Below are positions 187 to 49,952 of a DNA stretch of 49,952 bases, piece by piece. Both the position numbers and the translations under genes were made by a program. Source of the stretch: a virus. The notes under the pieces were generated by a model. It was given only the letters and a program-made list of their open reading frames with translations, was not told the origin of the DNA and did no database searches. Each line of letters begins with the position of its first letter. The first letter of the stretch is position 1. Where the stretch lies: positions 1 through 49,952 of IMG/VR virus record IMGVR_UViG_3300006305_000004; one strand, given 5' to 3'.

Positions 187-689
187 AATTTATTTGTAAC
201 AATAACGTCTTGTTCGCTATAGTCCTCCATCTCCTTGCTCCATGCTGACCAGTCGGCAGTCTGTCCAAAGTTCCCTTTGTATTCTCCCAACCTGTGGCCA
301 TAGGACTCCAAAGAGTGGCGACCATAGAGTTTTGGTGGCATACCGTCAATCCTTGCCTTGCGGTCTACCTCTAGCATATCGGGGTGGTACAACCTCGACA
401 GTAGTAATGTATCTATAACTCTACCCTCTGGTTCAAAGAATGGGTAGACTTTCTTTATCATCGGTATGTCAAAGCCAATGATGTTGTGGCCAATAATAGT
501 GTCAGCGGTCATAAGATACGTGACACCTCTGCTGATTGGCTCGGCAGTTCCTGTATCGTTGTATCTGGTAGTCTCACCTGTCTCATAGTCAAGCGTGACT
601 AAGCAGTGTAAGCTAACGTCCTCTTGACTTAGAGGTGTTGTTTCCAGATCGAACAGGAGGGTAATAGGTTTTGTCTCTGAATTTTGCAC
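147..689 (-). CDS. 3'-5' proofreading exonuclease (DnaQ-like), stand-alone half of a split DNA polymerase, copy A
   Basis: The 180-residue protein has the three motifs of the proofreading domain of family A polymerases: Exo I FDLETT near residue 14, Exo II GHNIIGFDIPMI near residue 68, and Exo III YSEQDVIVT near residue 158. In T7 this domain is the N-terminal part of gp5; here it is a separate gene ending 40 nt inside the polymerase gene, and together the two are about as long as one phage PolA. The start is GTG, with no ATG available nearby. Both copies keep the same arrangement, so it is not a sequencing frameshift. It presumably acts with the polymerase as the editing subunit; a physical complex is inference. 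Confidence 0.85.
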   Translation of the reverse strand: MQNSETKPITLLFDLETTPLSQEDVSLHCLVTLDYETGETTRYNDTGTAEPISRGVTYLMTADTIIGHNIIGFDIPMIKKVYPFFEPEGRVIDTLLLSRLYHPDMLEVDRKARIDGMPPKLYGRHSLESYGHRLGEYKGNFGQTADWSAWSKEMEDYSEQDVIVTNKLCQHFHPYLTGYN

Positions 690-721
690 GTCTTTTCTGT
701 TCTCTGGTGGGTGGGTTCGGT

Positions 722-2308: not shown

Positions 2309-2673
2309 CTTAACCAATCAATGGGGATTGCGTGTGCTGCCGCCCACTTGATGTTGTGTTTCTCACACCATTGGGCGTATGTAGTTTTGGATTTCTTACT
2401 GATCTTGTTGAATGGTGCTTGAAAGACCATACGAATGTCAAGGTGTGGGTTGTCACGAATGACGGCCTTGATCTTACGTCTGTCTTCTGAGTCCCAGTAA
2501 CCTTTGGTTTCTAGCATGACACCATTGAGCAGTACGAAATCAGGATTGTATTGGTGCTGTATGGTATAAGGAACTTGCTCGCCCTCATACACATACTTGC
2601 AACCAACTGTGTCTAGTAGTTCAGCAACGCTGACCTCTAGCTTAGACTTAAAAGTCTTCTTCTTCTTCGTCAA
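2305..2673 (-). CDS. T7 gp3-like endonuclease I (Holliday junction resolvase), copy A
   Basis: The protein aligns with T7 endonuclease I through FKSKLEVSVAELL (first catalytic Glu), NPDFVLLNG (catalytic Asp) and MLETKG (Glu-x-Lys). It resolves branched DNA and helps break down host DNA. No ATG exists in front of this conserved part. The nearest start is a TTG inside the acidic tail codons of SSB, conserved in both copies, giving 122 residues against about 149 in T7 and a 26-nt overlap with SSB. A +1 slip at the SSB stop (TTT TAA A) is the alternative. The 3' end overlaps the primase ATG by 4 nt. Confidence 0.85.
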   Translation of the reverse strand: MTKKKKTFKSKLEVSVAELLDTVGCKYVYEGEQVPYTIQHQYNPDFVLLNGVMLETKGYWDSEDRRKIKAVIRDNPHLDIRMVFQAPFNKISKKSKTTYAQWCEKHNIKWAAAHAIPIDWLR

Positions 2674-3226
2674 TGCTATCTTCGTCAGCCTTTTCTGGTT
2701 CTGTAGCTTTTGCAACAAAGCCTTCAGTCTTACCGAATAGGTCTGCAACTTCTTTGTCGTCCATGCTGTCTGCATCAACACCAGCGGCACTGCCTGCAAT
2801 CTCGACAACTTGTACACCAACTAGCTTGAGTGAACTACCATAAGTTACTCCATCCTTCAAGATGTATGGCTTCTGGAAAAAGCCTAGCTTTACAGTTGAG
2901 CCACCGTAGATCGGTGTCTTTGCATCTGTAACTGGTGTGCCTTCTGTGTCGACAACTGGTGGTTTCTTGTCCTCTCCCCATGAGAACTTGATCTTGAACT
3001 TACCATCAGCTACCTCTTCCCATGGTGTAGGCTTGAGTGTAGCTCTCTTTGGGTTCTTCAACTTAGACTCTGCCCACTTGAGGACAGCCTGTCTTTCTGT
3101 TTCAAGTGCGTCAATGATACTTGTGCCCACAATAGCTGCGAGTGAGTATCCGAACTTGCCGGGTTCTAGGATAGCTTGGAAGCCTTCTAGTTTGATAGCG
3201 TCTGTGACGTGTACGTTTTTGCTCAT
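2648..3226 (-). CDS. T7 gp2.5-like single-stranded DNA-binding protein, copy A
   Basis: The 192-residue protein starts MSKNVHVTDAIKLEGF immediately after the RNA polymerase stop. It has the length and position of T7 gp2.5 and ends in an acidic tail closing with an aromatic residue (DSIDEEEEDF), the tail that in T7 contacts polymerase and primase-helicase. It coats single-stranded DNA at the fork. Residues upstream of this Met in the same frame lie in the RNA polymerase gene and are not part of it. In copy B the tail has one extra residue (DSIPVEEEEDF). Confidence 0.9.
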   Translation of the reverse strand: MSKNVHVTDAIKLEGFQAILEPGKFGYSLAAIVGTSIIDALETERQAVLKWAESKLKNPKRATLKPTPWEEVADGKFKIKFSWGEDKKPPVVDTEGTPVTDAKTPIYGGSTVKLGFFQKPYILKDGVTYGSSLKLVGVQVVEIAGSAAGVDADSMDDKEVADLFGKTEGFVAKATEPEKADEDSIDEEEEDF

Positions 3227-3227
3227 A

Positions 3228-5579: not shown

Positions 5580-5703
5580 CTTGTATTTGTGCTAGTAGGT
5601 GTTTTCTGACCTCATCATAGTGAGGGTGGTCTTTGCTTAACATGTCTAATGCTTGTTTGTGGTAGGTGTAAACGTCATCAGACGGAATAGTTCTCTTTGT
5701 CAT
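5485..5703 (-). CDS. Small conserved protein upstream of RNA polymerase, copy A
   Basis: The protein has 72 residues starting MTKRTIPSDDVYTYHK (76 if the ATG four codons earlier is used). It is helical and charged, with no domain that I recognise. The last 95 nt overlap the start of RNA polymerase in another frame. The protein is identical in copy B although the DNA outside the overlap carries synonymous changes, which supports real coding. Its start overlaps the 3' end of the gene before it, so it is probably translated as part of the early polycistronic message. Confidence 0.7.
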   Translation of the reverse strand: MTKRTIPSDDVYTYHKQALDMLSKDHPHYDEVRKHLLAQIQDELADRYNGRPNHGTGQLRKITDQTGSEKTA

Positions 5704-6007
5704 TGTCTGTAACATATTTTAGTGGTATCAAATGTTGTATATCGTTGTGTGTGCATACAGTAAACTCTGTCTCAGCACCAGCGATCAACTCTTTGACCTT
5801 TTTCTTTGCAGCTGCACCTGACTTGTACACGTGTTCTGTGACCTTGTTGGTTCTGTGATTACGTGCACGAATCATGCAATGATACTCTGTTGGCATCTCC
5901 CAGCCGTCTATCTTCCAAGACATGAATGTCATGAACTCAATAGGCTCGAACCACTCAGCTGGGCAGTTCTTTATCATGTTGTAGTTGTTTGGAAATTCTT
6001 TCTTCAT
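5678..6007 (-). CDS. Early-region protein of unknown function, 109 residues
   Basis: It starts MKKEFPNNYNMIKNCP and contains a lysine-rich middle (KSGAAAKKKVKEL). No family is recognised. It overlaps its neighbours on both sides (53 nt and about 26 nt), typical of the packed early region of T7-like phages. The last 20 codons reappear at the end of the window (copy B) with synonymous differences only, which shows purifying selection. An internal Met at residue 11 is an alternative start. Confidence 0.7.
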   Translation of the reverse strand: MKKEFPNNYNMIKNCPAEWFEPIEFMTFMSWKIDGWEMPTEYHCMIRARNHRTNKVTEHVYKSGAAAKKKVKELIAGAETEFTVCTHNDIQHLIPLKYVTDNDKENYSV

Positions 6008-6968: not shown

Positions 6969-7886
6969 TTAGTTTTTGTTGTATCTGTCAAGTAGCTTGG
7001 TGTAAGCTGCGTCTTTTATAGTTATAGCATAGTTTTCGTCATCTGCAATGATCTCTAACAAATTCTTAAGGAACTTGTTTTCATCTGCTGATATACCTAC
7101 AACTCTGCCTGACTTGGAACCCTTAGCCTTAGCTGGTGTCTTCTTGGCTGGTACTAGCTTCTTAGCTTTGATCTTGGATACAGCTGGTGCATCTTTCTTG
7201 AGTGATGCTTCGAGTTGTTTGACTTGCATTGAAGCCTTGGCATCTGCGATAGCCTTATCTATATTGGCCTGCTCCTGTGCTCTCTCTTCTGGTGTAGTAG
7301 AGAAGTCATATACAGGTAGGTCTGATTTGTTTGGTGTTGTTGTCATGGGTGTAATAATGAATGATGGTTTACGTGTTGGTATGCGTAGATAGTTGGTAGC
7401 TAACCACGGCTTGGTGTTGAGGTAGCGTTTGTACGCTGTGATAGTGTCGATAGTATCGTCGTACTTGAGATACTCTGGCATGGCACGTGTGAAGATACCG
7501 ACCTTGCGTGATGCGTCAGACAACATGAGATTGTTGAATGACTTGTGGTAGATACGTTCGGCCTGCTCGATAACATCAAGACAGGTATGCACCTTGCCAT
7601 AGCGTAGGTTGTACTCGTGACACAAAGCATAGCCGTGTCGTATGAGCCACGCTAGATTGTATGGTGTAGCGGCAGCCCACATTGTGCAGGGATGCTTGCG
7701 AAAAGCACCATGCTGAGTACGATAGGGTGTGCCGTCCTTCTTGTATAACTTGCCCACACCATAATACCAATCGCTGTATATGATAGCAAGCATCTGGCAA
7801 GTCTCGAGTGGCATCTTGACTATGTGCTTGTCGGGTAGGTTGCGAGCCGATTGTATCGGGCAGGGATCTGTTACAAAGATGTTCAT
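6969..7886 (-). CDS. Conserved phage protein with DKHxVKMPLE motif and a Lys/Ala-rich tail
   Basis: The protein has 305 residues when started at MNIFVTDPCPIQSARN; the open frame extends upstream through the tRNA but that part is not protein. DKHIVKMPLETCQML followed by HPCTMWAA is a family pattern common in marine phages, where it is often left unnamed or loosely annotated as a pyrimidine-dimer glycosylase; I do not see firm catalytic evidence. From about residue 190 the chain becomes Lys/Ala-rich and low in complexity, suggesting a flexible nucleic-acid-binding tail. It has its own strong promoter placed so close that the mRNA may be leaderless. Confidence 0.7.
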   Translation of the reverse strand: MNIFVTDPCPIQSARNLPDKHIVKMPLETCQMLAIIYSDWYYGVGKLYKKDGTPYRTQHGAFRKHPCTMWAAATPYNLAWLIRHGYALCHEYNLRYGKVHTCLDVIEQAERIYHKSFNNLMLSDASRKVGIFTRAMPEYLKYDDTIDTITAYKRYLNTKPWLATNYLRIPTRKPSFIITPMTTTPNKSDLPVYDFSTTPEERAQEQANIDKAIADAKASMQVKQLEASLKKDAPAVSKIKAKKLVPAKKTPAKAKGSKSGRVVGISADENKFLKNLLEIIADDENYAITIKDAAYTKLLDRYNKN

Positions 7887-7892
7887 ATCTAT

Positions 7893-7921
7893 ATTATAGT
7901 TCGGTTTTTTGATTCCGTCAA
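7893..7921 (-). promoter_or_regulatory. Strong sigma70-type promoter
   Basis: Minus strand: -35 TTGACG (5 of 6), 17-nt spacer, -10 TATAAT (6 of 6). It lies between the tRNA and the 305-residue gene. Only six bases separate the -10 box from the ATG, so transcription should start at or within a base or two of the start codon. A host-type promoter here would let host polymerase express this gene and everything downstream, including RNA polymerase. Confidence 0.75.
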
Positions 7922-7942
7922 CGAAATGTGTTGAAATCAAAA

Positions 7943-8014
7943 CGATTCTACGGGGAGTCGAACCCCGACCATGTCCGTGACAGGGACACGTTCTGACCAT
8001 TAAACTATAGAATC
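7943..8014 (-). tRNA. tRNA-Asp (anticodon GUC)
   Basis: It has a complete cloverleaf: acceptor GATTCTA/TAGAATC (7 bp), D-arm GTTT/GAAC, anticodon stem TGTCC/GGACA with loop CTGTCAC (anticodon GTC), a 4-nt variable loop, and T-arm CGGGG-TTCGACT-CCCCG. The discriminator base is G, as expected for Asp. CCA is not encoded, so the host enzyme must add it, as in cyanobacteria. It sits between early protein genes and just upstream of a promoter. Confidence 0.95.
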
Positions 8015-34424: not shown

Positions 34425-35615
34425 TTAAGCGTTAGCTGGGTATGTAGTACCAAATCCAGATGGCTTAGTTGTTGTTCCAGCGAACAATTCAACACAAGCA
34501 GCTGGGTTTAGGAAGTCTGCTCCCATAGCTAGTCTTCCAAGGATTACGTCACCTTGGTATACAACTGAAACGTCACCTGAAGTTACCTGAACCTGTGGGC
34601 CGATAGCTTCTACAACACCAGCAGCTTCTCTTTGGAAGATAAGTCCGCATGTGTTTGCAAAGTCGGTTGAGTTTCCGTAGTTGTTATTGATACCTGTAAC
34701 TGAAGCTCTTGCATCTTCTGTAGACTCAGAGATGAATGAACCTGTGTTACCGGGGTCAATAGTTGCAAGGTCAGTACCAGCAGATGCACCTGATGAAGGA
34801 GCATACTTTGTACCATACTTGCTGAAGAATGGGATGTTCATTGACTTGAAGATCTGGATGCCTGCAATTTCAATGATACCTTGTCCACTCTGTAGAGCTG
34901 TACCTTGTACGTCTCTGTTTACAAGACCATTAGAACCGATAGCTTGTATAAGTTCGTAGTACTGTCTTGGGTTTAGGACAGCAACTCTGCCTTCAGTTCC
35001 AACACCTTTCTCGTCTAGTGCAGCAGCTGCATCATAGAAAGCTGAGATTAGGTGTGTTGAGTTGTAAGCATCGTCTGCGTCTGATCCAGCACCAACTTGG
35101 ATCTGTGTTCCACCGGGCTCTACAAAGTTAGTCATAGAAACAGGAGAAGCCTGTCTAGCACCTTTTGCGATAGCACGGAAGATTAATCTGTCATACTTCT
35201 CTGCAAGAGCATAACCGATTTTGTTGGAGATTTCACCACGTAAGTCGTAGTGTGCAAGTGTCTCGTCTAGCTCATAAACGAAAGCACTGGAGATAAGAAG
35301 ATCATCTATTGTGATTGTCTTCTCAGCTACTGGAGGAGCCTTTTGGTCGTTACCTAAAATGCTCTGGCCGGGTGTATGATACTCGGCTGTTGTGCGACCA
35401 GTGTAGATGAACTGCATAGACTTACCTGATGTAAGTGTTCTCTTCTGCACTAAGTCTCTAGCGATTGTATTTCTCTGGAAGCCTTTAAACATCTCTCCAC
35501 TGAACAGCTTCAAGTAAAGGGCTCTAGGATCACTACCGCCGTTTAACGCACCCTGTCTTGTGAGTTGTGTTGGGTTAACGTTAGATTGATGATCGAAAGA
35601 TCCGGGGTATGCCAT
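34425..35615 (-). CDS. Major capsid protein (T7 gp10-like)
   Basis: The 396-residue protein has an HK97-type fold by family. ALYLKLFSGEMFKGFQRNTI, TSGKSMQFIYTGRTTAEYHT and VAVLNPRQYYELIQA are hallmark segments of T7-like capsids (T7: 345). It forms the shell. The leader before it is long and structured (palindromes and hairpins), and the ATG has only a weak purine run before it, unusual for the most abundant protein. A stem-loop terminator follows. Confidence 0.95.
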   Translation of the reverse strand: MAYPGSFDHQSNVNPTQLTRQGALNGGSDPRALYLKLFSGEMFKGFQRNTIARDLVQKRTLTSGKSMQFIYTGRTTAEYHTPGQSILGNDQKAPPVAEKTITIDDLLISSAFVYELDETLAHYDLRGEISNKIGYALAEKYDRLIFRAIAKGARQASPVSMTNFVEPGGTQIQVGAGSDADDAYNSTHLISAFYDAAAALDEKGVGTEGRVAVLNPRQYYELIQAIGSNGLVNRDVQGTALQSGQGIIEIAGIQIFKSMNIPFFSKYGTKYAPSSGASAGTDLATIDPGNTGSFISESTEDARASVTGINNNYGNSTDFANTCGLIFQREAAGVVEAIGPQVQVTSGDVSVVYQGDVILGRLAMGADFLNPAACVELFAGTTTKPSGFGTTYPANA

Positions 35616-35644
35616 TTCTTTATAGAATGTATTGGTTTACGTTC

Positions 35645-35702
35645 TTCAGTACTGAAATTTTTTTTGGCCATATTTTTGTGGTCTATCCCACCGTCTAGAC
35701 GG
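35645..35702 (-). other. Two perfect 12-base palindromes in the capsid leader
   Basis: TTCAGTACTGAA (35645-35656) and CCGTCTAGACGG (35691-35702) lie 30 and 76 bases before the capsid ATG, separated by an A-rich run. They could be protein-binding sites, RNase III-type processing hairpins or mRNA stabilisers. Confidence 0.55.
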
Positions 35703-35735
35703 ATTGAGGTATCTGCCTTAGCAGGCTCGCTCCAA

Positions 35736-35782
35736 TAGAGATGGGAGGACTTGAACCTCCCTGTACGGCCTTAACCGATTAC
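35736..35782 (-). other. tRNA-like 3' half in the capsid leader
   Basis: The minus strand has GGGAGG-TTCAAGT-CCTCCC, a perfect T-arm with the invariant TTCRANT loop, followed by ATCTCTA, like the 3' acceptor strand and discriminator of a tRNA. Before it is an imperfect hairpin GTAATCGG/CCGTAC. No D-arm or matching 5' acceptor strand (AGAGATG) was found at the right distance, so it is not a complete tRNA. A tRNA-derived attachment site or a degraded tRNA are possible. P-SSP7 is known to carry a tRNA-matching att site. Confidence 0.5.
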
Positions 35783-35824
35783 TCTTGTGTACTTAATGCC
35801 ACGATATACGTAGGTTACAGTCAT
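35771..35824 (-). CDS. 17-residue YRG peptide before the capsid gene
   Basis: It reads MTVTYVYRGIKYTRVIG. The ATG has a good GGAGAG site four bases upstream. The YRGxxY pattern is that of the short DUF4278 domain found in cyanobacteria and their phages, reduced here to its core. Real translation is plausible because of the ribosome binding site and motif, but the size demands caution. Confidence 0.5.
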   Translation of the reverse strand: MTVTYVYRGIKYTRVIG

Positions 35825-35839
35825 TGTACTCTCCATATA

Positions 35840-35883
35840 CCAAGCCCCGTTCCATGCTTGGGTGTCATGCGTCCCTTGCGGGA
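35840..35883 (-). other. Two hairpins between the small-gene block and the capsid leader
   Basis: CCAAGC/GCTTGG with a 10-nt loop (35840-35861) and TCCC-TTGC-GGGA (35872-35883, with flanking CGTCC/GGACG pairing possible). No U-tract follows. Together with the palindromes and tRNA-like element they make the 280 bases upstream of the capsid gene highly structured. Confidence 0.45.
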
Positions 35884-35898
35884 TGAACGGACGGCAAG

Positions 35899-36135
35899 TT
35901 ACTTCTTGCGTCGTTTGTGGTTGTAGTTTATACGACGACTACTTGTCTTTGTTCTGTTGAACTTGGCCTTCTCGCCACTCGACATCTCACCTGTAGTCTT
36001 AGGTGTTTTAGATGACACACGTCTAGATGGTCTGCAAGCTGGGTAGCCTTTACGCTTCTCACCTTTCTGTCTGCCACAGGGCTTACCAGTTTTGGTGTCA
36101 ACCCATTTCTCTTGGAACCATCTACGTAAGCTCAT
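35899..36135 (-). CDS. Basic conserved cyanophage protein, 78 residues
   Basis: It starts MSLRRWFQEKWVDTKTGKPC and has CGRQKGEKRKGYPACRP, the pattern of a small Lys/Arg-rich family (DUF5872-like) common in cyanophages. Function unknown; nucleic-acid binding is likely from charge. ATGA overlap with the preceding gene. Confidence 0.75.
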   Translation of the reverse strand: MSLRRWFQEKWVDTKTGKPCGRQKGEKRKGYPACRPSRRVSSKTPKTTGEMSSGEKAKFNRTKTSSRRINYNHKRRKK

Positions 36136-36296
36136 CTTCTTTTCTTTTTAGTGTAGCCGGGTGCTGTTCTTTTTACACCACCTGATTTGACCTGACCCTT
36201 ACATACCTTAACAGCGTATGCGTTTGCGTATGCAGAGGGGTAGACCTTAAACTTTCTTTTGGCAGCTGCTTTACCGCGTGGACATAATTTACCCAT
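36132..36296 (-). CDS. Basic conserved cyanophage protein, 54 residues
   Basis: It reads MGKLCPRGKAAAKRKFKVYP, continues SAYANAYAVKVCKGQ and ends TAPGYTKKKRR. The SAYANAYAVKVCKG segment is shared by many cyanophages. It is basic with two Cys. Overlaps of TGATG and ATGA link it to both neighbours. Confidence 0.75.
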   Translation of the reverse strand: MGKLCPRGKAAAKRKFKVYPSAYANAYAVKVCKGQVKSGGVKRTAPGYTKKKRR

Positions 36297-36352
36297 CAGC
36301 GTTTCTTACCTCCATGCTTGCAGCCACATTTAGATCCTTTCTTGTGTGCCAT
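36296..36352 (-). CDS. 18-residue Cys/Lys/Gly peptide
   Basis: It reads MAHKKGSKCGCKHGGKKR. The CGCxH arrangement could bind a metal. It is supported mainly by TAATG and TGATG overlaps with the genes on both sides in an otherwise gap-free chain. Confidence 0.45.
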   Translation of the reverse strand: MAHKKGSKCGCKHGGKKR

Positions 36353-36570
36353 TATGCTTTACCTTTTTTGTTTTTCATCATTTTCTTAAGCCTTCTCTGC
36401 TCTTCGATTGCTTTATCTAGGTTTGCTCCACCAGTAAAGTCATCATCTTTGAGTCTTTTTTGTAGGTTCTTAAGATTTCTAGGTGTTATATCCATGGCAA
36501 GTTTACTGCCTTTTCTCTCACGCTCTTCGATCTGTTCTGGATCGTCGTCACGCATCCTGTATGTTTTCAT
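36352..36570 (-). CDS. Small charged helical protein, 72 residues
   Basis: It starts MKTYRMRDDDPEQIEERERK; an earlier Met in frame would overlap the preceding gene. It is a charged helix with a basic end (KKMMKNKKGKA). Function unknown. Confidence 0.6.
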   Translation of the reverse strand: MKTYRMRDDDPEQIEERERKGSKLAMDITPRNLKNLQKRLKDDDFTGGANLDKAIEEQRRLKKMMKNKKGKA

Positions 36571-36571
36571 G

Positions 36572-36826
36572 TTAGCACTTCCATCTGCGTAAGGCAAGTG
36601 CCTTTCGTGTAGGCTTGCCGTTTGGTTTTTTGAGTGGGCCTTTCATGCCAGACATGCGAGCACAAAATGACCTCTTTCTAGCCCCTCCTCCGGGCTGTGG
36701 AGCTTTGAGATTAGAGCCAGTGGCACGATTGTACTTGGCTCTTCCCTTAGCTGTCAGGCCGCCTTTGCGACTCTTCTCACCTCTTCCGAGAGACAGGCTT
36801 ACTCCCTTTCGTTTTCTTTTTGCCAT
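36572..36826 (-). CDS. Basic conserved protein (DUF6321-like), 84 residues
   Basis: RGEKSRKGGLTAKGRAKYNR, then ATGSNLKAPQPGG and SFCARMSGMKGP, is a strongly conserved phage pattern. It is Lys/Arg/Gly-rich with a few Cys. The role is unknown; such proteins cluster next to capsid genes in cyanophages. Confidence 0.75.
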   Translation of the reverse strand: MAKRKRKGVSLSLGRGEKSRKGGLTAKGRAKYNRATGSNLKAPQPGGGARKRSFCARMSGMKGPLKKPNGKPTRKALALRRWKC

Positions 36827-36935
36827 TTCTAAGTTTTGCGAAGTCAGCTCCTGTGATTTTATCTCGGGGTGGTGCTACTCTGGCAATCTTCATTTGCTTG
36901 GCAGAGTACTTCTTCTTACCAGCTGGCTTAGGCAT
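36777..36935 (-). CDS. Basic conserved cyanophage protein, 52 residues
   Basis: It starts MPKPAGKKKYSAKQMKIARV and has PRDKITGADFAKLR, the MKIARVA...DFxKLR pattern of a small cyanophage family. Its end overlaps the DUF6321-like gene by 50 nt, and its ATG overlaps the hli stop as TAATG. Confidence 0.7.
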   Translation of the reverse strand: MPKPAGKKKYSAKQMKIARVAPPRDKITGADFAKLRNGKKKTKGSKPVSRKR

Positions 36936-37069
36936 TACAGGATACCGGGTATGATTTGTCCTGTAGTGATGTATGTGCCGATAGCGATTACGAATCCTAT
37001 CATTGCTAGTCTTCCGTTTAGCTCTTCAGCTGGATGCCATTTCTGGTTTTCGTGGTTGTGATGTGTCAT
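36935..37069 (-). CDS. hli: High-light-inducible protein (Hli), phage-encoded
   Basis: The 44-residue protein has the chlorophyll-binding helix signature of Hli/CAB-type proteins: AEELNGRLAMIGFVIAIGTY followed by TGQIIPGIL. The Glu, Asn and Arg of ExxNGRxAM are present, as is the TGQ turn. Host and phage Hli proteins bind chlorophyll in thylakoids and protect photosystem II assembly; phage copies help keep photosynthesis going during infection. Here it sits in the small-gene block beside the capsid gene, with no psbA near. It is the strongest single sign of a cyanobacterial host. TAATG overlap with the next gene. Confidence 0.92.
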   Translation of the reverse strand: MTHHNHENQKWHPAEELNGRLAMIGFVIAIGTYITTGQIIPGIL

Positions 37070-37071
37070 AG

Positions 37072-37254
37072 TTATACTGGGTAGTTGTTGTTTTCTTTGA
37101 AGACATCTCTCTTCTTCTTGTTGTTCTTTGCTAAAGGATAGATCAGCCCCGGTATTGGGAGCTGTCTATAGTACTCCTTCTTCTCTGGTTTGAATACATC
37201 ATAAGGAGAGCGTGGGTCTGAAGTAGGTTTCTTCTTTCCTTTCTTCTTGTCCAT
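37072..37254 (-). CDS. Small Lys-rich protein, 60 residues
   Basis: It starts MDKKKGKKKPTSDPRSPYDV and contains YYRQLPIPGLIYPLA. Function unknown. It is the gene before hli in the transcript and overlaps the stop of the preceding peptide gene (TAATG). Confidence 0.65.
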   Translation of the reverse strand: MDKKKGKKKPTSDPRSPYDVFKPEKKEYYRQLPIPGLIYPLAKNNKKKRDVFKENNNYPV

Positions 37255-37364
37255 TACTTTTTCTTCTTCTTAAGTTTCTTTAGCTTTTCTAGAGCCATCT
37301 TTTTCTTCATGGCTGGTGTCATTTTTTTCTTTGGCTTCATTCCGCCACCGTAATGTCCGGGCAT
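37254..37364 (-). CDS. 36-residue Lys/Met-rich peptide
   Basis: It reads MPGHYGGGMKPKKKMTPAMK and ends in a Lys run. The MPGHYGGGMKP beginning is familiar from cyanophages. It starts just after the scaffold gene. Confidence 0.6.
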   Translation of the reverse strand: MPGHYGGGMKPKKKMTPAMKKKMALEKLKKLKKKKK

Positions 37365-37366
37365 AG

Positions 37367-38164
37367 TTAAAACTCCAAGTCTGATCTGTCTAGTTTTTGT
37401 ATTACGTCTTGTCTGTAAGCTGGATCTCTGTCGTAACGAGGATCATTCATCGCTGCGACTAGCTCTTGCTGACTGCGGAAAACGTCACCGCTGTTTTGTG
37501 GGGCTTTGCCTGTTACCATTCTACCTTCTACTCCATTTGCACTATCGTATTCTGCTTTGAGCCCAGACACTGCTAACTGTATAGCCTGTACACTGCCTGT
37601 ATTTACGACTTCATCAAATGCAACGATTTGGTCTTGTGGTAAATTAGTCTTAGCCCAGTTTACTATTTGAGCATACTGCTGCTCACCGCCTGCTGAGTTC
37701 TTGATCTGGTTGATCTGAGCTGTAGTGATCTCAGCCGGTGGAGCACCTTGCTGCTGAAACTCTGGATTCTGTGACACTTCCATGTACGCCTTGATTAAAT
37801 CTTGGCTGGACATAGAGGAGAACTTAGCCATAGTCTCAGGTGACAACTTGTTACCATTGTCAAAGTACTCCTTACTAGCGTCAGTGATAAGAGTAGCACC
37901 CTCGGACATCTTTGGTGTATCCTCGGGCTGCTCCTCCGCACTGGCTGTTTCGGTTTCCGTCTCTTCTTTTTTCTCTCCAAGTTTAGCCTGTAACTCTATG
38001 TAAGCTTTCTCTAACTCTTGAGCACTCTTATACTTACCAGCATAAACTTGCTCTTCTTGTTGAGATATAGATTCACCAACAGCTAGAGAGTCTTGCTCTT
38101 CTGCTGTTAGATTATCTACAGTTGTTACATTCTGTGGCTCTTGGTATGATAATGTTTCTGACAT
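37367..38164 (-). CDS. Scaffolding protein (T7 gp9-like)
   Basis: The 265-residue protein is acidic and Gln/Glu-rich in its N-terminal half (EEKKEETETETASAEEQPED-type composition), with a more ordered C-terminal half. Position between portal and capsid and low complexity fit a scaffold that guides shell assembly and then leaves. T7 gp9 is 307 residues. Confidence 0.85.
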   Translation of the reverse strand: MSETLSYQEPQNVTTVDNLTAEEQDSLAVGESISQQEEQVYAGKYKSAQELEKAYIELQAKLGEKKEETETETASAEEQPEDTPKMSEGATLITDASKEYFDNGNKLSPETMAKFSSMSSQDLIKAYMEVSQNPEFQQQGAPPAEITTAQINQIKNSAGGEQQYAQIVNWAKTNLPQDQIVAFDEVVNTGSVQAIQLAVSGLKAEYDSANGVEGRMVTGKAPQNSGDVFRSQQELVAAMNDPRYDRDPAYRQDVIQKLDRSDLEF

Positions 38165-39745
38165 TTACTCTTGTGGTGGTTGTAAGTTACTTAACACAGC
38201 TGCTGCTTGATCTGCTAACTCTGGATTCTTAGTAGGATCCATGAGTGGTGTACCAGCAAGCTGACCGGCTTGATCTACAAGTGACTGATTAGTCTTATCT
38301 TGTACTGTCATTTGCTTCATCTGTTCTAGCTGCTCGGCTGTACGTACAAGATTAAGTACGTCGATACCTTGTGCTGCTGCTAATCGTTTGATAGCTTCGC
38401 TTGGGTCTATGTATTTTACCAGAGCTTCTGGCCCTAGTGTCTGTGCAACTGTTTGTATAAATCTAGTCAGGGATTCGTTGTCCTGTCCTCTACCTAGACT
38501 ATTAATACCAGCAACTATCTTTGGTCTTACGACATCTTTTGGTAGCCTTGGTATCTGATTAGATCTCTGTAGTATTAACAGAGTTCTGTTGAGGTAGGGT
38601 ACTAAAAACTCTACCGTTAACAAGCTGAACAGGCCGCCAAGGGATTGTTCTAGCTCTAGCTGTGTAAGGCGTACCTCTTCAGCTGTAACTCTTTCTGCGT
38701 TCCTGATGTTCATAACCAAGAAAGCTTCAAGTATTCTTCTTTCTATAGTTGCTGCCATGTTTGCAGCTGTAGCAAAGTCTGCTGTCTTACCGACTTGCAC
38801 GACTCCTACATCTTCTGGTCTACCCTGTATGATAGCTCCGTTACCAGCTTTGGCAAGAGTACCCGGCTTGGTTGTTGCAGAAGGTGAGACAAGAAAGACA
38901 ACTTTACTTGCCACACTTGCTCCTTCTACAAGAGCTTGAGATAACCCATCGAGACTCCTTAGATCCCCAATGAACTCTTCTACTCTACCACGTCCGTAGT
39001 CCTCTCCGTCTACTGTATTGAATCGAAGCACTAACCATGGTGAGGCGTTCTTCGGTGCTGTGCTCTGGCTACCTTCTAGGATCATGTCGTCCACTTCTTG
39101 ATGCCATCTCCAACTACCGCTACTCTCATCCATCTTAACACAGGTGTATACCTCAGCGTCGTCTTCTGTAGCACCATATTCCCCATTCGGGCTGTCAGTA
39201 GGTGGGGGTGCTATGCCCAATACTTTTCTACTAACCATTTCTTTTGTAACGATCTCTATAACGTTACCGTTGCCATCTCTTTCTACAACGTATCTGTTGA
39301 GAGGATAGTGTTTTAGGCCATCTTTGCTCATGAATACAAGAGCATTACCAGATACGATTAGATGCTTCAAGGCTTGGTGAACTACAACTCGATCGCTTGA
39401 TGCAGCTATGTAGTCCATAATCAGTCTCTCTATCTTTGAGAATGATAAGTCTAACTCACTCCGCATCATAGGGTCAAGCGTTTGGCCTAGCTTGTCATCC
39501 CTAACCTGTAGTTTGAAAAAAGCTGTTTGCGGTGGTAGTATTGCTAACATAAGTTTTGCTGCAAGTGTTACCACGGCTTTCGCTCCAACTGACTGGAAGG
39601 GTTGCAATAGCTGTCGCTTGCCTGTAGAGTCGTCATCTCTAGTGACAAGATATGGTAAGGTAAGTTCAGAGCACTCAACTGCCATGTCTAGAAACTGTGT
39701 TCTGCCTGACGATAGCATTGAATATCTTTCCCTTGCCTTATACAT
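38165..39745 (-). CDS. Portal protein (T7 gp8-like head-tail connector)
   Basis: The 526-residue protein has the T7 connector pattern: LVTRDDDSTGKRQLLQPFQS, VTLAAKLMLAILPPQTAFFK, NIRNAERVTAEEVRLTQLEL. T7 gp8 is 536 residues. It forms the twelve-fold ring through which DNA passes. The start overlaps the preceding small gene by 8 nt. Confidence 0.95.
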   Translation of the reverse strand: MYKARERYSMLSSGRTQFLDMAVECSELTLPYLVTRDDDSTGKRQLLQPFQSVGAKAVVTLAAKLMLAILPPQTAFFKLQVRDDKLGQTLDPMMRSELDLSFSKIERLIMDYIAASSDRVVVHQALKHLIVSGNALVFMSKDGLKHYPLNRYVVERDGNGNVIEIVTKEMVSRKVLGIAPPPTDSPNGEYGATEDDAEVYTCVKMDESSGSWRWHQEVDDMILEGSQSTAPKNASPWLVLRFNTVDGEDYGRGRVEEFIGDLRSLDGLSQALVEGASVASKVVFLVSPSATTKPGTLAKAGNGAIIQGRPEDVGVVQVGKTADFATAANMAATIERRILEAFLVMNIRNAERVTAEEVRLTQLELEQSLGGLFSLLTVEFLVPYLNRTLLILQRSNQIPRLPKDVVRPKIVAGINSLGRGQDNESLTRFIQTVAQTLGPEALVKYIDPSEAIKRLAAAQGIDVLNLVRTAEQLEQMKQMTVQDKTNQSLVDQAGQLAGTPLMDPTKNPELADQAAAVLSNLQPPQE

Positions 39746-43136: not shown

Positions 43137-44399
43137 TTAGTGTACGTCAGCCCAAGTATATCCGATCTTAGCTTCTGCTGCGATGGGACATCTTAGATTG
43201 TAATGTTCGCCGGCCAATCTGGCGGCTGTTTCGAGCCATTTTGCAAATTCTTCTGCAAATCTTGGATAACATTCGTAGTTTAGCTCGTCATGTACGAATG
43301 AGAGTTGATGTCCGTCGGGTGGTAGACATTCATTCACAATCACCATCCATCTTTTGGCGATCGTCGCTGCGCTTCCCTGTAAGAGGTAATTGAGAAACTT
43401 ATGCCCTTTGTCAACGCTGATACGCCTGCCGTCGATGGCGTTTGCATAACCACGTTTACTAGCTTTCTCACAAGCGAGTAGCAAATCTGCAAGACCCGGA
43501 ATGGCAGCAATATAAGCCTTACGAATCTCTGCCCCTTTGACAGCAGCGGCTTTTTCGGACAATAGCTTATCATAACTGTATCCTAGTTTGGTATTCCCAG
43601 CCCCGTAGAGGAAGGCATAGGTAACTGTTTTAACTTGTCTTCTGGTAATTCCAATCCTGTCGGCATTTGTTTGATGACTATCCCCCGTAGTAAGTATTCG
43701 TTGATACCGGCCATTATCATACCTCGAAAGGTAATGAGCAAGCATACGGAGCTCAATGCCACTAAGATCCGCGGAAACCATTTGATAGGTAGGAGTGGCC
43801 CGGAATAATTTTCTGACTCTTTCATCTGATGGTACTTGTGCTAAGTTTGGTTTTCTGTGTGAACATCTGAATGTGCTGGTTGCAACCCCACAGTGGTGGT
43901 GAATACGATTACACGTCGTAGATAGCTTCTGCCATGCGTTCACGCCTTCCGAGATCATCCCCAATTTCTTGGTAATATCTAGACATTTCAGAAACAAGAG
44001 GGCTGTCTCCGACCCAATATCTTTCAATACTGTCTCGTCTACGACCGGCTTGCCGGTGGCTGTTCTCTGTGTTGGTTTCCAATTTTCGTGGGTCTGTAGT
44101 ATCCATGCTATGTGGTCTCGTGAGGTGGGGTTAAGTTGTTTAAGTTTTGTAAATGGGCATCCTTGTACGTACCCTTGTGGCCTGTTATTTCGCTTAGGTG
44201 TAAACACTGTTCCAGCAACGAACCCGAATTTTCTGCGTAATACTTCTGTAGCTTCTTCCAGTTCTCCTCTGAGAGTTGATTCGAGCTCGTAGGCTGCTCG
44301 TTCGTCGAAATACCATCCATGTTCTTCTTGTTTTTGTAAGATGTGTGCGACCTGATGTTCTAGTTGTACCCAGTCAGGTAAGGGTGGAAATGTTGGCAT
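43137..44399 (-). CDS. DNA polymerase (family A), polymerase domain only
   Basis: The 420-residue protein has motif A SADLSGIELRMLAHYLSR, motif B RRQVKTVTYAFLYGAG and motif C SFVHDELNYECY, with both catalytic Asp residues. The residue equivalent to E. coli Phe762 is Tyr (KTVTY), as in T7, a state reported as associated with virulent phages. There is no exonuclease domain; that is the separate overlapping gene before it. With the exonuclease it makes about 600 residues against 704 in T7 gp5, so the region that binds thioredoxin in T7 is probably short or absent. The ATG has no obvious ribosome binding site and depends on coupling. Confidence 0.93.
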   Translation of the reverse strand: MPTFPPLPDWVQLEHQVAHILQKQEEHGWYFDERAAYELESTLRGELEEATEVLRRKFGFVAGTVFTPKRNNRPQGYVQGCPFTKLKQLNPTSRDHIAWILQTHENWKPTQRTATGKPVVDETVLKDIGSETALLFLKCLDITKKLGMISEGVNAWQKLSTTCNRIHHHCGVATSTFRCSHRKPNLAQVPSDERVRKLFRATPTYQMVSADLSGIELRMLAHYLSRYDNGRYQRILTTGDSHQTNADRIGITRRQVKTVTYAFLYGAGNTKLGYSYDKLLSEKAAAVKGAEIRKAYIAAIPGLADLLLACEKASKRGYANAIDGRRISVDKGHKFLNYLLQGSAATIAKRWMVIVNECLPPDGHQLSFVHDELNYECYPRFAEEFAKWLETAARLAGEHYNLRCPIAAEAKIGYTWADVH

Positions 44400-44902
44400 A
44401 GTTTATTTGTAACAATAACGTCTTGTACACAATAGTCCTCCATCTCCTTGCTCCATGCTGACCAGTCGGCAGTCTGTCCAAAGTTCCCTTTGTATTCTCC
44501 CAACCTGTGGCCATAGGACTCCAAAGAGTGGCGACCATAGAGTTTTGGTGGCATACCGTCAATCTTTGCCTTGCGGTCTACCTCTAGCATATCAGGGTGG
44601 TACAACCTTGATAGTAGTAGTGTATCTATAATTCTACCCTTTGGTTCAAAGAATGGGTAGACTTTCTTTATCATCGGTATGTCAAAGCCAATGATGTTGT
44701 GGCCAATGATCGTGTCAGCATCCATAAGATACGTAACACCTCTACTGATTGGCTCTTCAGTTCCTGTGTCGTTGTATCTGGTAGTCTCACCTGTCTCATA
44801 GTCAAGTGTGACCAAGCAGTGCAACTCAACGTCCTCTTGACTTAGAGGTGTTGTTTCCAGATCGAACAGGAGGGTAATAGGTCTTGTCTCTGAATTTTGC
44901 AC
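44360..44902 (-). CDS. 3'-5' proofreading exonuclease, copy B
   Basis: It has 180 residues with the same three Exo motifs as copy A (FDLETT, GHNIIGFDIPMI, and YCVQDVIVT in place of YSEQDVIVT). The metal-binding Asp/Glu are unchanged. GTG start and the 40-nt overlap with the polymerase gene are conserved, although the bases just before the polymerase ATG differ (AAACTATG against AAATTATG in copy A). Here the complete polymerase partner is in the window. Confidence 0.87.
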   Translation of the reverse strand: MQNSETRPITLLFDLETTPLSQEDVELHCLVTLDYETGETTRYNDTGTEEPISRGVTYLMDADTIIGHNIIGFDIPMIKKVYPFFEPKGRIIDTLLLSRLYHPDMLEVDRKAKIDGMPPKLYGRHSLESYGHRLGEYKGNFGQTADWSAWSKEMEDYCVQDVIVTNKLCQHFHPYLTGYN

Positions 44903-44934
44903 GTCTTTTCTGTTGTTTGGTGGGTGGGTTTGGT

Positions 44935-46518
44935 TTAAAAATCTGTAGCTGGGTTGAACTCAACTGTGTCTTCGGTTTTAGTTTCATAAAATTGGCAAGT
45001 AGATAGGTCATAGCTCAGAGTTGTAGCAACTCCAACCTCTCCTGAGAAACGGTTTTTAAGCACTCTAAGAGTTGTAAGGTTAGCGTTAGCCTCTCCTTGC
45101 TGGTCTCGTTCCAGTGCGATGACGCTATCGCTGAGCTGAGCGATCGAATGAGATCCTCGTAGCTGGCCAAGAGAGACACGTCCCCCTTCTTCGTGTGAGT
45201 TACTGTCACTGTTTGTTCTCCGTAGGTGTGATACTAAAAATAATGCGATACCTGTACGTTCAACTAATGATCTGAGCTTAGTCATTGTCGAGTCTATCAT
45301 ACGTCTTTCATCGCCGTCAAGACCACTTAATAATATAGAAAGATGGTCAAGAAATATAATACGGCACTCCAGTCCACTGGCAAGGTACTCGATCCTGTTG
45401 TAAATAACATCTGGGTCAAAGCTACCAAAGCCATCAAACAGAAAAACATTCCACTTTGCAAGAGTATCAGCAAAAGCAGACTCGAGTTCTTCTTTGTCAT
45501 GTTCTCCAATGTGATAGGGTTTACCAACGGCTGCGGACATAAGCCCCAGTGCCGTACGTTTATTGTTTGCTTCAAGCTCAAGGATACCAACTGTCTCACC
45601 TTTCATAGCAAGATCAGCTGCGATAGCCCTGACCAATGAAGTCTTACCACTACCTGACCCAGCTGTAAGAGTAGTTAGCTCTCCGTATCTGATGCCATGT
45701 AGTTTTTCATTCAGTCCCTCGAAAGGGTATTCGTGGTCACAGGTTTTGGTAGGCTCTGTAACCAATGCCATGAGATTCTTACCATCAACAATACCGTCTG
45801 GTCTGTATGGCTTGGCATCCCATATGGCTCTCCTTATTGCTTCTCTGTCTTCAGCTTGGAGTGCATCGCTTGCATCTTTGTAAGCATCAAGTCTAGCAAT
45901 CTTAACCCTGCCGGCGGGGAGTATACTCGAGGCAGATTCAACGGCCTCACGCCCTGCTTCGTCGTTGTCGAAGAAGAGGACGATCTCTTGGTAGCCTTGC
46001 AAGAAGGGTATGGCTTTCTGCAAGTCTTTCTTGGCTGCTGCCGCACCATGAGGTAGGCTGACCATGGGCCAACCTGACATAACTTCGTAACAACTGGCAG
46101 CATCTAGTTCTCCCTCCGTAATAACAATTCGTTTTCCGCTTGTCGGGAACAAATGCTGCCCAAAAAGGGTGTCTGAGGAAGAACCTTCGTAGTGGAAGTC
46201 CTTTGATTTTGTTTTGATTTTGAAGCCAACAACTTGTCCATTGCTGTCATAATATGGGAAGCGTAAGGTATTGCCATGTCTGTAAATCCTATAGAACGCA
46301 TTTGTTGCTTCACTGATTCTTCGTTTTTGCAGCTGTTCAGCTGATCCGAGGAACTGTACATTTGTATTCATTCTGTATGGTGGATTGTCCCCGTCCGCCG
46401 GGGTGTACGTTTGGCACGCAAAGCAGTACGCATGGCCGTCAGAGTAACGTGAGTTAGCGTCCGACGAGCCACAGTTGTTACATGGTTCGTGTGCCACAAA
46501 TTCTGATTCTGTGTTCAT
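44935..46518 (-). CDS. T7 gp4-like DNA primase-helicase, copy B
   Basis: It is 527 residues from MNTESEF, whose ATG overlaps the endonuclease stop. Zinc ribbon, TOPRIM and helicase motifs are identical to copy A. Differences gather just after the zinc ribbon (DGDNPPYRMNTNVQ against NGDNYTPIMNNERVQ) and near residue 110 (EGSSSDTLFGQ against EGQGSDQLFGQ), which are linker positions; the catalytic core is almost unchanged. Confidence 0.93.
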   Translation of the reverse strand: MNTESEFVAHEPCNNCGSSDANSRYSDGHAYCFACQTYTPADGDNPPYRMNTNVQFLGSAEQLQKRRISEATNAFYRIYRHGNTLRFPYYDSNGQVVGFKIKTKSKDFHYEGSSSDTLFGQHLFPTSGKRIVITEGELDAASCYEVMSGWPMVSLPHGAAAAKKDLQKAIPFLQGYQEIVLFFDNDEAGREAVESASSILPAGRVKIARLDAYKDASDALQAEDREAIRRAIWDAKPYRPDGIVDGKNLMALVTEPTKTCDHEYPFEGLNEKLHGIRYGELTTLTAGSGSGKTSLVRAIAADLAMKGETVGILELEANNKRTALGLMSAAVGKPYHIGEHDKEELESAFADTLAKWNVFLFDGFGSFDPDVIYNRIEYLASGLECRIIFLDHLSILLSGLDGDERRMIDSTMTKLRSLVERTGIALFLVSHLRRTNSDSNSHEEGGRVSLGQLRGSHSIAQLSDSVIALERDQQGEANANLTTLRVLKNRFSGEVGVATTLSYDLSTCQFYETKTEDTVEFNPATDF

Positions 46519-46880
46519 CTTAACCAATCTATGGGGATTGCGTGTGCTGCCGCCCACTTGATGTTGTGTTTCTCACACCATTGGGCGTATGTAGTTTTGG
46601 ATTTCTTACTGATCTTGTTGAACGGTGCTTGAAAGACCATACGAATATCAAGGTGTGGGTTGTCACGAATGACGGCCTTGATCTTACGTCTGTCTTCTGA
46701 GTCCCAATAACCTTTGGTCTCTAGCATGACACCGTTGAGCAGTACGAAATCAGGATTGTAGTGGTGCTGTATGGTATAAGGAACTTGCTCGCCCTCATAC
46801 ACATACTTGCAACCAACTGTGTCTAGTAGATCAGCAACGCTGACCTCTAGCTTAGACTTAAAAGTCTTCTTCTTCTTCAA
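46515..46880 (-). CDS. T7 gp3-like endonuclease I, copy B
   Basis: It has 121 residues from the TTG that is conserved in position just before KKKKTFKSKLEV. Catalytic Glu, Asp and ETK residues are the same as in copy A. The codon after the TTG present in A is absent here, yet the TTG and the Lys run are kept, which supports TTG as the true start. Confidence 0.85.
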   Translation of the reverse strand: MKKKKTFKSKLEVSVADLLDTVGCKYVYEGEQVPYTIQHHYNPDFVLLNGVMLETKGYWDSEDRRKIKAVIRDNPHLDIRMVFQAPFNKISKKSKTTYAQWCEKHNIKWAAAHAIPIDWLR

Positions 46881-47439
46881 CTGGAATACTATCTTCGTCA
46901 GCAGGCTCAGGAGCTGTAGCTTTTGCAACAAATCCTTCAGTCTTACCAAATAAGTCTGCAACTTCTTTGTCGTCCATGCTATCTGCATCAACCCCAGCTG
47001 CGCTGCCCGCAATCTCGACAACCTGTACACCAACTAGCTTGAGTGAACTACCATAAGTTACTCCATCCTTCAAGATGTATGGCTTCTGGAAAAAGCCTAG
47101 CTTTACAGTTGAGCCACCATAGATAGGTGTCTTTGCATCTGTAACTGGTGTGCCTTCTGTGTCGACAACTGGTGGTTTCTTGTCCTCTCCCCATGAGAAC
47201 TTGATCTTGAACTTACCATCAGCTACCTCTTCCCATGGTGTAGGCTTGAGTGTAGCTCTCTTGGGGTTCTTCAACTTAGACTCTGCCCATTTAAGAACAG
47301 CTTGTCTTTCTGTTTCAAGTGCGTCAATGATACTTGTACCCACAATAGCTGCGAGTGAGTATCCGAACTTGCCGGGTTCTAGGATAGCTTGGAAGCCTTC
47401 TAGTTTGATAGCGTCTGTGACGTGTACGTTTTTGCTCAT
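46858..47439 (-). CDS. T7 gp2.5-like single-stranded DNA-binding protein, copy B
   Basis: It has 193 residues, nearly identical to copy A except in the acidic tail region (TAPEPADEDSIPVEEEEDF against TEPEKADEDSIDEEEEDF). The terminal acidic-Phe ending is kept. Start two bases after the RNA polymerase stop. Confidence 0.9.
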   Translation of the reverse strand: MSKNVHVTDAIKLEGFQAILEPGKFGYSLAAIVGTSIIDALETERQAVLKWAESKLKNPKRATLKPTPWEEVADGKFKIKFSWGEDKKPPVVDTEGTPVTDAKTPIYGGSTVKLGFFQKPYILKDGVTYGSSLKLVGVQVVEIAGSAAGVDADSMDDKEVADLFGKTEGFVAKATAPEPADEDSIPVEEEEDF

Positions 47440-47440
47440 A

Positions 47441-49792
47441 TTAACAAAAGAAATAAGTGGATTCGATAACCGACTCTGGCTGTAAGTCGCCAATGATCGG
47501 TGGTTCAGTCTCTGCCTGTATCTGGTCGGCAAAGGTCTGGAGATAGTCATGCTCTGCAAACAGAATCATGTACGTCTCCCTAATTATAGCAGATAATTTA
47601 TCCATATCGCAACATCTGCTTAACACACTGTCATGAATTAGTGCGATTGGCTGATCGAAGCTACGCACAGCGAGGTGTAGCAGTGATGCGTCCAGACTAT
47701 GGATGAGGTTAGGTGCAGTAGCAGCCTTGTGCCTGTTGATGTCAACCTCCTTCCCATCTTCTACTGCGACGGATAGATCACAACGACCTAGTAGCTGTAG
47801 CTGGATGCGTTCAACCTTCTTCTTGAAGTAACGCTGTCTGACTACGAAGCCAGAAGGAGTCGTCCATTCCACATACTCTTCACCACGTTTAATAGTCTTA
47901 CCAACCTCAGTCTCGATCCATCTCATAACTGACATTGGCCCGGGCACGACTGCCCCCATAGCCGAACGAACTGATGTAACGATCTGAGTAAGCTGGTCTT
48001 TGTCTACCTCGACACCCTTCTCTTTGAGAGCATCTTTGATATAAGACCTATTAGAATATGGTTTAGCATTATATGGTATGGTCATAACTGTACGTTTTAC
48101 ACACTTTCTGTCCCACACACCTCGTACAGTTTCAGGTATGTATGGCTTTGACACATCTGCAATGACTCTGTACGCATCTTGTGGTCTGTCAGATGGTACA
48201 ACATTTACGAGAAGTGCTGTGGTCTTATCCCTTGCCAAGCCTGCTAGTATCTGCAAACCAGAACAGGTGGCATCAGTAGCCACGGGTAAGGAAGTAGTCA
48301 ATCTTTGTTTGGTAATCACACACTGATGATACTCCTCGCAAGCTGCAAGGAATAACCAAGGCTCGTCTGCCCCCTCCCAATCTCCTAGATTACCTAGTGG
48401 ATCAGATGAGACACGTGAGACAAGCTCAAGATTAGCGTGTGTCCAGTCTAGACGCTCTTGCATCGTAGACTTATCCAGTCCGTATGTGGTAGCGACTTGG
48501 AAAGCGAGCCATTTCTCACTGCTGTCAGTATACTCCGCAGCATTGGCAAACTGTAGCAATGACTTGCCAAAGTCTGTATCTTGTGGAGTAAGGAAAGCAG
48601 GGATAGGATAAGCTCGCCCCCTGTAGTCAAACGACCATGGTATGTAGAACTCTCTGTCTTTGAAGCGATTGACAGCTTCCATAGTCATACGTGTGCGACA
48701 GGATCTCTTGAACTCTGCTGCTCTTTTGTTCATTACCTCTGCTGCTTCACGTCGATACTTCTTACGAGACTCTTTGTTCTCAGCTATATCGACTGGCTTA
48801 GGTGGTAGATCGTAATGAACGATAGGTAGGAACTTTCCAACACTTATCCCTTTGTCTTGTAACAGCATAGCGACATTGACTATGAACGGGTTTAACCGAT
48901 ATTTTACCTGTTGGATTTTGTTGAGAAAAGCGAGTGGGATTTCCCCCTGTATAAGGGCGTGATCGCCTCTTCTAACAAGCTCATGGCCTTGCATTACCTC
49001 GTTGAGTATATACCCACCGACCTCCGTGTTTGACCAGTCTCTAGGCGGTACTAGCATAGGCCACGCTAAAGGACTGAATAATTCTGCATTTGCCATGACT
49101 TCATCTTTGATGTCCATGAACTCTGCGGTCGGTGCAATAAACACTTGAGTCTTACGACCTGTGCGTATGCGTTGCTTGTAGAACCAGCCACTTGATGCCA
49201 TAATGCAATCGAGTAACCAGCCACCAAGTTTGGTACGGATACTTGTACCCCATGGTTTCCACTGTTCAATTCTGTAGCGGTTCATCAGCGTCCTGATGAC
49301 AACTAGCTTCTGTTGTGTGCCACAGGCTTTGTGCCAGTAGTTGTCCTTGAGAGTCTTGAGTAAAGCAGGGGCGGCATGCTCGTAGTGTCGCATCTGACAC
49401 TCGTCTTCAATAGCCTTGCCTATCATAGAACATACGTTGGTAGCTGTGTTGCAGTTGTCCTTGTAACCAAAGACGTTATCGAATGTAACTTTGCATGCGA
49501 TAGCTGCGGCAGCCAGTGCCTCAATACTAGCTAGATATTGGTGTATATCCTTGAAGGCAGCTCCGTACTTGCCTTGATGTATTTTCTTGTTAGTGTCTTC
49601 GATACGTTGAACTACACGTGGTAGTAACGCATCAATCGAAGCGATACCATATACTGTTGCAGAAGAGTACTGTTGTGCTTCTAGCTTATACGTTTGGTCA
49701 CGCAGTCTTTTCAGACCCTGTTTGATCTGTGATCTTTCTAAGTTGACCTGTTCCGTGATTTGGTCTTCCGTTATATCTGTCTGCGAGTTCAT
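47441..49792 (-). CDS. T7-like single-subunit RNA polymerase, copy B
   Basis: It has 783 residues. By eye I find four substitutions relative to copy A: I5T, R to K in EQWRPWG, R to K in LLQDRGIS and K to R in DAYKVIAD. All catalytic motifs are the same. This is the least diverged gene of the repeated module. Confidence 0.97.
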   Translation of the reverse strand: MNSQTDITEDQITEQVNLERSQIKQGLKRLRDQTYKLEAQQYSSATVYGIASIDALLPRVVQRIEDTNKKIHQGKYGAAFKDIHQYLASIEALAAAAIACKVTFDNVFGYKDNCNTATNVCSMIGKAIEDECQMRHYEHAAPALLKTLKDNYWHKACGTQQKLVVIRTLMNRYRIEQWKPWGTSIRTKLGGWLLDCIMASSGWFYKQRIRTGRKTQVFIAPTAEFMDIKDEVMANAELFSPLAWPMLVPPRDWSNTEVGGYILNEVMQGHELVRRGDHALIQGEIPLAFLNKIQQVKYRLNPFIVNVAMLLQDKGISVGKFLPIVHYDLPPKPVDIAENKESRKKYRREAAEVMNKRAAEFKRSCRTRMTMEAVNRFKDREFYIPWSFDYRGRAYPIPAFLTPQDTDFGKSLLQFANAAEYTDSSEKWLAFQVATTYGLDKSTMQERLDWTHANLELVSRVSSDPLGNLGDWEGADEPWLFLAACEEYHQCVITKQRLTTSLPVATDATCSGLQILAGLARDKTTALLVNVVPSDRPQDAYRVIADVSKPYIPETVRGVWDRKCVKRTVMTIPYNAKPYSNRSYIKDALKEKGVEVDKDQLTQIVTSVRSAMGAVVPGPMSVMRWIETEVGKTIKRGEEYVEWTTPSGFVVRQRYFKKKVERIQLQLLGRCDLSVAVEDGKEVDINRHKAATAPNLIHSLDASLLHLAVRSFDQPIALIHDSVLSRCCDMDKLSAIIRETYMILFAEHDYLQTFADQIQAETEPPIIGDLQPESVIESTYFFC
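48944..48965 (-). repeat. 22-nt promoter-like repeat in RNA polymerase gene, copy B
   Basis: It is the same sequence as in copy A at 4731-4752, one mismatch from the post-terL site at 10699-10720. Confidence 0.35.
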
Positions 49793-49916
49793 CTTGTATT
49801 TGTGCTAGTAGGTGTTTTCTGACCTCATCATAGTGAGGGTGGTCTTTGCTTAACATGTCTAATGCTTGTTTGTGATAGGTGTAAACGTCATCAGACGGAA
49901 TAGTTCTCTTTGTCAT
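49698..49916 (-). CDS. Small conserved protein upstream of RNA polymerase, copy B
   Basis: It is 72 residues, identical in protein to copy A, with at least one synonymous change in the part that does not overlap RNA polymerase (TAC against TAT for a Tyr). This supports it as a real gene. Confidence 0.7.
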   Translation of the reverse strand: MTKRTIPSDDVYTYHKQALDMLSKDHPHYDEVRKHLLAQIQDELADRYNGRPNHGTGQLRKITDQTGSEKTA

Positions 49917-49952
49917 TGTCTGTAACATATTTTAATGGTATCAAGTGTTGTA
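49891..49952 (-). CDS. 3' end of the 109-residue early gene, copy B, cut by window edge
   Basis: The last 20 codons are present (HLIPLKYVTDNDKENYSV and the two before). Base changes against copy A are synonymous (His CAC for CAT, Leu TTA for CTA). The 5' part lies beyond the window. Confidence 0.7.
   Translation of the reverse strand, partial: QHLIPLKYVTDNDKENYSV

Follow-up and report, generated by a model that had tools for sequence, protein, structure and literature searches.

A 50-kb marine podovirus contig with a diverged terminal overlap is very probably a mixed-strain assembly running past one turn of a 44.2-kb genome

The Prochlorococcus phage P-SSP7 has a linear genome with direct terminal repeats of 206 bp, yet it was first assembled as a circle, and T7-like phages make concatemers through recombination at such terminal repeats (PMC3350473). 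Repeated genomes in IMG/VR were called probable metagenomic assembly artefacts with CheckV (PMC8116208), and the 'concatemer' topology class of MetaVR is likewise ascribed to assembly and screened for by a 21-mer frequency above 1.4 (PMC12807716). The contig described here resembles these over-length records in holding more than one genome length, which in their case was attributed to assembly, but it comprises only 1.13 copies and its copies are 4% apart. DTR (circular) metagenome contigs, which have identical ends of k-mer length, share with it the overrun of a circular assembly path; here, in contrast, the ends extend over 5.7 kb and are not identical, since the path would have switched to another strain.

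The window, that is the whole stretch of DNA analysed, is 49,952 bp long and spans all of the public virus record IMGVR_UViG_3300006305_000004. Self-BLAST revealed a sole long repeat, with positions 44214-49952 matching positions 1-5739 on the plus strand (95.9% identity over 5,747 columns, E = 0). The sequence-only reading of this DNA had reported a second diverged copy at a net offset of 44,213 bp, and its coordinates were exact. Copy A opens at contig base 1 and copy B closes at the last base, with no sequence beyond them, and both contig ends fall inside a copy. Since the window is the whole record, the overlap is strictly terminal. The contig amounts to 113% of a unit genome, about 1.13 times round a 44,213-bp unit, and the earlier claim that it spans more than one genome and joins two alleles is borne out by the terminal overlap and by the circular continuity shown below. 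The unit of 44.2 kb is also the size expected for T7-like cyanopodoviruses, usually 44 kb according to the same reading. The repeat is an overlap of the two ends of a 44.2-kb genome, long and diverged, and not a module repeated within a larger replicon. The contig divides into three parts:

1 to 5739, minus strand: terminal copy A at the left contig end (self-BLAST; Pfam and PHROG matches), with the start of DNA polymerase, the exonuclease subunit, primase/helicase, endonuclease I, the gp2.5-like SSB, RNA polymerase and an upstream small ORF.
5740 to 44213, unstranded: single-copy backbone (junction ORF test; Pfam; PHROGs), with early small genes, terminase, tail, capsid, portal, ribonucleotide reductase (RNR), exonuclease and most of DNA polymerase.
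44214 to 49952, minus strand: terminal copy B at the right contig end, with the same genes as A and 96% identical to it.

On its gene content, the source can be assigned to the T7-like (P-SSP7-like) marine podoviruses of the Autographiviridae, and its unit genome measures 44,213 bp. Every major gene is on the minus strand, and the order is that of T7-like marine podoviruses (Pfam, PHROGs): RNA polymerase, gp2.5-like SSB, endonuclease I, primase/helicase, a DNA polymerase encoded as separate exonuclease and polymerase genes, 5'-3' exonuclease, ribonucleotide reductase, portal, scaffold, capsid, tail genes (assigned by synteny with P-SSP7), HNH endonuclease and a T7-type terminase. The order of the T7-like RNA polymerase, primase/helicase, pol A, gp2.5-like SSB, endonuclease I, portal, capsid and terminase is conserved, and terminase-region DNA is 72-76% identical to that of P-GSP1, P-SSP2, P-SSP3 and P-SSP7. 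The replication genes used in the comparisons are:

147 to 689, minus strand: DNA polymerase 3'-5' exonuclease subunit in copy A (phrog_403, phrog_17), its own gene in both copies, at 44360-44902 in copy B.
722 to 2317, minus strand: primase/helicase (gp4-like), copy A (Pfam Toprim, DnaB_C).
3228 to 5579, minus strand: T7-like single-subunit RNA polymerase, copy A (PF00940, PF14700), at 47441-49792 in copy B.

The window shares with P-SSP7 (Tiamatvirus, Autographiviridae; 45,176 bp) the gene order and the T7-like RNA polymerase and terminase, and differs from it in having a replication module at each end of the contig and in lacking recognisable psbA, hli, talC and integrase genes. Neither psbA nor hli was recognised between capsid and portal (34425-39745), nor were talC and integrase found, though the nearest named relatives are Prochlorococcus phages. 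A protein of 343 amino acids, encoded at 6969-8000 between RNA polymerase and terminase, combines an N-terminal pyrimidine-dimer glycosylase domain (PF03013) with a match to the phage DNA-binding family phrog_624; no counterpart is noted in the P-SSP7 annotation. The exonuclease and polymerase genes of the DNA polymerase overlap by ~40 bp, and the split is kept in both alleles. P-SSP7 has its DNA polymerase likewise split (017A/017B), annotated there as a split or programmed variant, and the presence of the split in both copies and in P-SSP7 rules out an assembly error at the junction as its source.

In a global alignment, A and B showed 206 mismatches together with a few short, mutually compensating indels, and both copies are 5,739 bp long. 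Codon changes were 40 synonymous against 4 non-synonymous in RNA polymerase, in agreement with the earlier description of mostly synonymous differences and cancelling indels, and 59 against 13 in primase/helicase. Across the four genes tested, dS was ~0.08-0.19 and dN 0.002-0.023 (dN/dS ~0.03-0.16). The differences are unevenly spread (index of dispersion 4.8): exactly identical tracts reach up to 266 bp, while the most diverged block, at 1900-2200 in primase/helicase, shows ~22% divergence. Sequencing error is ruled out as their origin, since the changes are mostly synonymous and are found in independent contigs. By these measures, the differences between A and B resemble those separating living alleles.

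Continuity at the two boundaries between copies and backbone was examined with the ORFs that cross them:

43137 to 44399, minus strand: DNA polymerase A, polymerase domain (PF00476, E = 1.4e-37), spanning the backbone/B boundary at 44213/44214.
5678 to 6007, minus strand: small ORF spanning the A/backbone boundary at 5739/5740 (phrog_9569).

When position 44213 was joined to base 1 of allele A, an intact polymerase ORF of 420 amino acids resulted, of the same length as with B, and joining 49952, the end of B, to 5740 gave a 109-amino-acid frame identical to that given by A. Each of the two copies therefore joins the backbone in frame at both junctions. Both boundaries are also traversed, with one copy of the module, by the related contigs L003, L005, L007 (the same as G007) and G001, which have ~93-96% identity over the module and backbone on both sides of it; at 92-96%, these relatives are different strains from the window. 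Because both joins are intact and the relatives are single-copy through both boundaries, A and B are alternatives at a single locus of one circular map.

Each allele is found in nature as a haplotype of its own. When A and B were aligned with five independent marine contigs, at least one allele was present in relatives at all 232 A/B mismatch columns, and both were present at 143 of the 232. The affinities are local: at columns 1751-2250, A agrees with G007 at 98-99% and B with L003 and G001 at up to 100%, and outside these columns the affinities of A and B to relatives change. No closer contig from the same sample was found, the nearest in IMG/VR being ~95-96% identical. These comparisons show a phage population that recombines, with A and B as two haplotypes from it, each of which may contain internal phase switches. 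In the 1900-2200 block, A matches G007 while B matches L003 and G001, in part almost exactly, which suggests that this segment has been exchanged between strains.

We conclude that the contig is, with high probability, a mixed-strain assembly of one 44,213-bp phage population that overran one turn onto the allele of a second strain. Linear phage DNA with short terminal repeats, together with replicating concatemers, would give a circular assembly path. With a single strain, the path would close and leave a short identical end repeat. Where at least two co-occurring strains, ~4% apart in the replication module, contribute reads, the assembler would exit the module along allele A, round the backbone and re-enter along allele B; as the strains differ at the meeting point, closure would go unrecognised and the path would run on along the other allele until its support ends. 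The ends not being an exact match, the circle would be neither closed nor the overlap trimmed. This assembler step, and the origin of A and B in different virions, are what we infer behind the diverged overlap, the circular continuity of both alleles, the single-copy relatives, the alleles found in nature and the recurrence in unrelated contigs described next. The average 21-mer frequency of the contig is 1.07, against the cut-off of 1.4, and an exact terminal repeat is absent from it, so that k-mer-frequency and exact-repeat tests both miss it.

The same anomaly was found in related contigs of similar length. Among eight 44-50-kb contigs collected by way of related proteins, the window included, six have a diverged terminal overlap at one genome length: besides the window these are G001 (~75% identity, ~2.3 kb), G002 (93%, 560 bp), G004 (~77%, ~2.8 kb), G015 (90%/75%) and G016 (97%, 155 bp). 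G005 has an identical end repeat of 98 bp, and G003 has no terminal overlap. The contigs are cut at places scattered over the map (tail genes, near capsid or portal, replication module), and because of this scatter the cuts mark no packaging site.

Microviridae genomes are ssDNA circles of which one unit is packaged, and they served as a control: if dsDNA concatemeric replication were needed for the pattern, such unit-packaging circles should lack diverged ends. The 80 Microviridae contigs used were chosen through relatedness to the phiMH2K capsid protein: identical ends were seen in 34, divergence at one genome length was scored in 19, and 27 showed neither. Leaving aside the weakest calls, L478 (70%, 212 bp) and L479 (97.98%, 99 bp), at least 17 of the 80 have diverged ends. 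The divergence is small in 11 of the 19, at 2% or less over 101-345 bp. Two of the 19, L448:1-8670 and L435:1-7113, consist of ~2.0 and ~1.6 genome copies that follow one another head to tail and are ~80% identical; these are extreme cases of diverged over-run or possibly real dimers. Because Microviridae show the same pattern, diverged over-run is not tied to T7-like replication but is a property of mixed-strain metagenome assembly.

The order of copy A, backbone and copy B is also expected from a natural inter-strain concatemer, in which two co-infecting strains would have recombined end to end via their terminal repeats inside the cell, more than one unit then being sequenced. We consider this origin improbable. 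T7-like phages do recombine at terminal repeats into concatemers (PMC3350473), A and B are alleles of one recombining population, and the order and spacing of the parts agree with such a molecule. However, a concatemer is not required, given that unit-length circular Microviridae share the pattern, and overlaps down to 75% identity, as in G001 and G004, suit population mixtures better than recombination partners. The intact ORFs resemble those of a consensus assembly and not of a raw noisy long read, and with exact A/B tracts as long as 266 bp, short reads, if used, could not have phased 50 kb. There is no specific support here for a natural inter-strain concatemer, which, if true, would offer a glimpse of strains recombining as they replicate in the ocean.

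A true tandem duplication of the replication module within one replicon, with later divergence, would account for one record carrying two intact copies under purifying selection, but we find it barely credible. The offset is that of the whole genome and not of the module, the copies end exactly at the record ends with no unique outer flanks around the module, and both full-length and junction-spanning relatives are single-copy; moreover, a genome of 50 kb that encodes two RNA polymerases would exceed that of P-SSP7 by ~5 kb. Headful packaging with ~13% terminal redundancy would fit the over-unit length, but it is ruled out by the diverged copies (within a clone, redundant ends are identical and do not differ by 4%) and by a terminase and gene order like those of T7 and P-SSP7, a lineage with fixed ends (206-bp repeat in P-SSP7; PMC3350473).

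The candidate site of the natural genome ends lies away from both contig ends:

8226 to 10722, unstranded: region between terminase and early genes, candidate site of the natural ends (short direct terminal repeat; P-SSP7 map, PMC3350473).

By analogy with that map, the natural genome ends should fall in this region, and the linear contig G003 begins and stops within it. Nothing in the window corresponds to the left 2.5 kb of P-SSP7, and for that reason the natural terminus is placed only approximately. A packaging site at the contig ends is ruled out, base 1 lying inside DNA polymerase and related contigs being cut at scattered places.

Of the three causes that the sequence-only reading had left side by side, the recurrence in IMG/VR contigs, Microviridae included, strongly favours assembly chimerism, and the single-copy relatives strongly oppose tandem duplication. 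Its view that each explanation would be informative was too generous, as the likely cause is routine; the biology is ordinary, and the main weight of the finding is a data-quality warning. In effect, the contig holds one complete genome of 44.2 kb, to which 5.7 kb from a second strain is attached. Such records are taken for linear by exact-repeat tests, and the whole replication module, RNA polymerase included, is counted twice. The pattern is common both in the Microviridae control and among the long relatives that were checked, so testing for inexact terminal overlap would recover complete genomes and avert false claims of duplicated phage modules. Each such contig also yields a pair of co-occurring natural alleles.

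An end overlap was seen as well in the isolate record of P-GSP1 (L216:1-44945), whose ends are 99.2% identical over 357 bp, and the deposited genome probably overlaps itself by ~355 bp.
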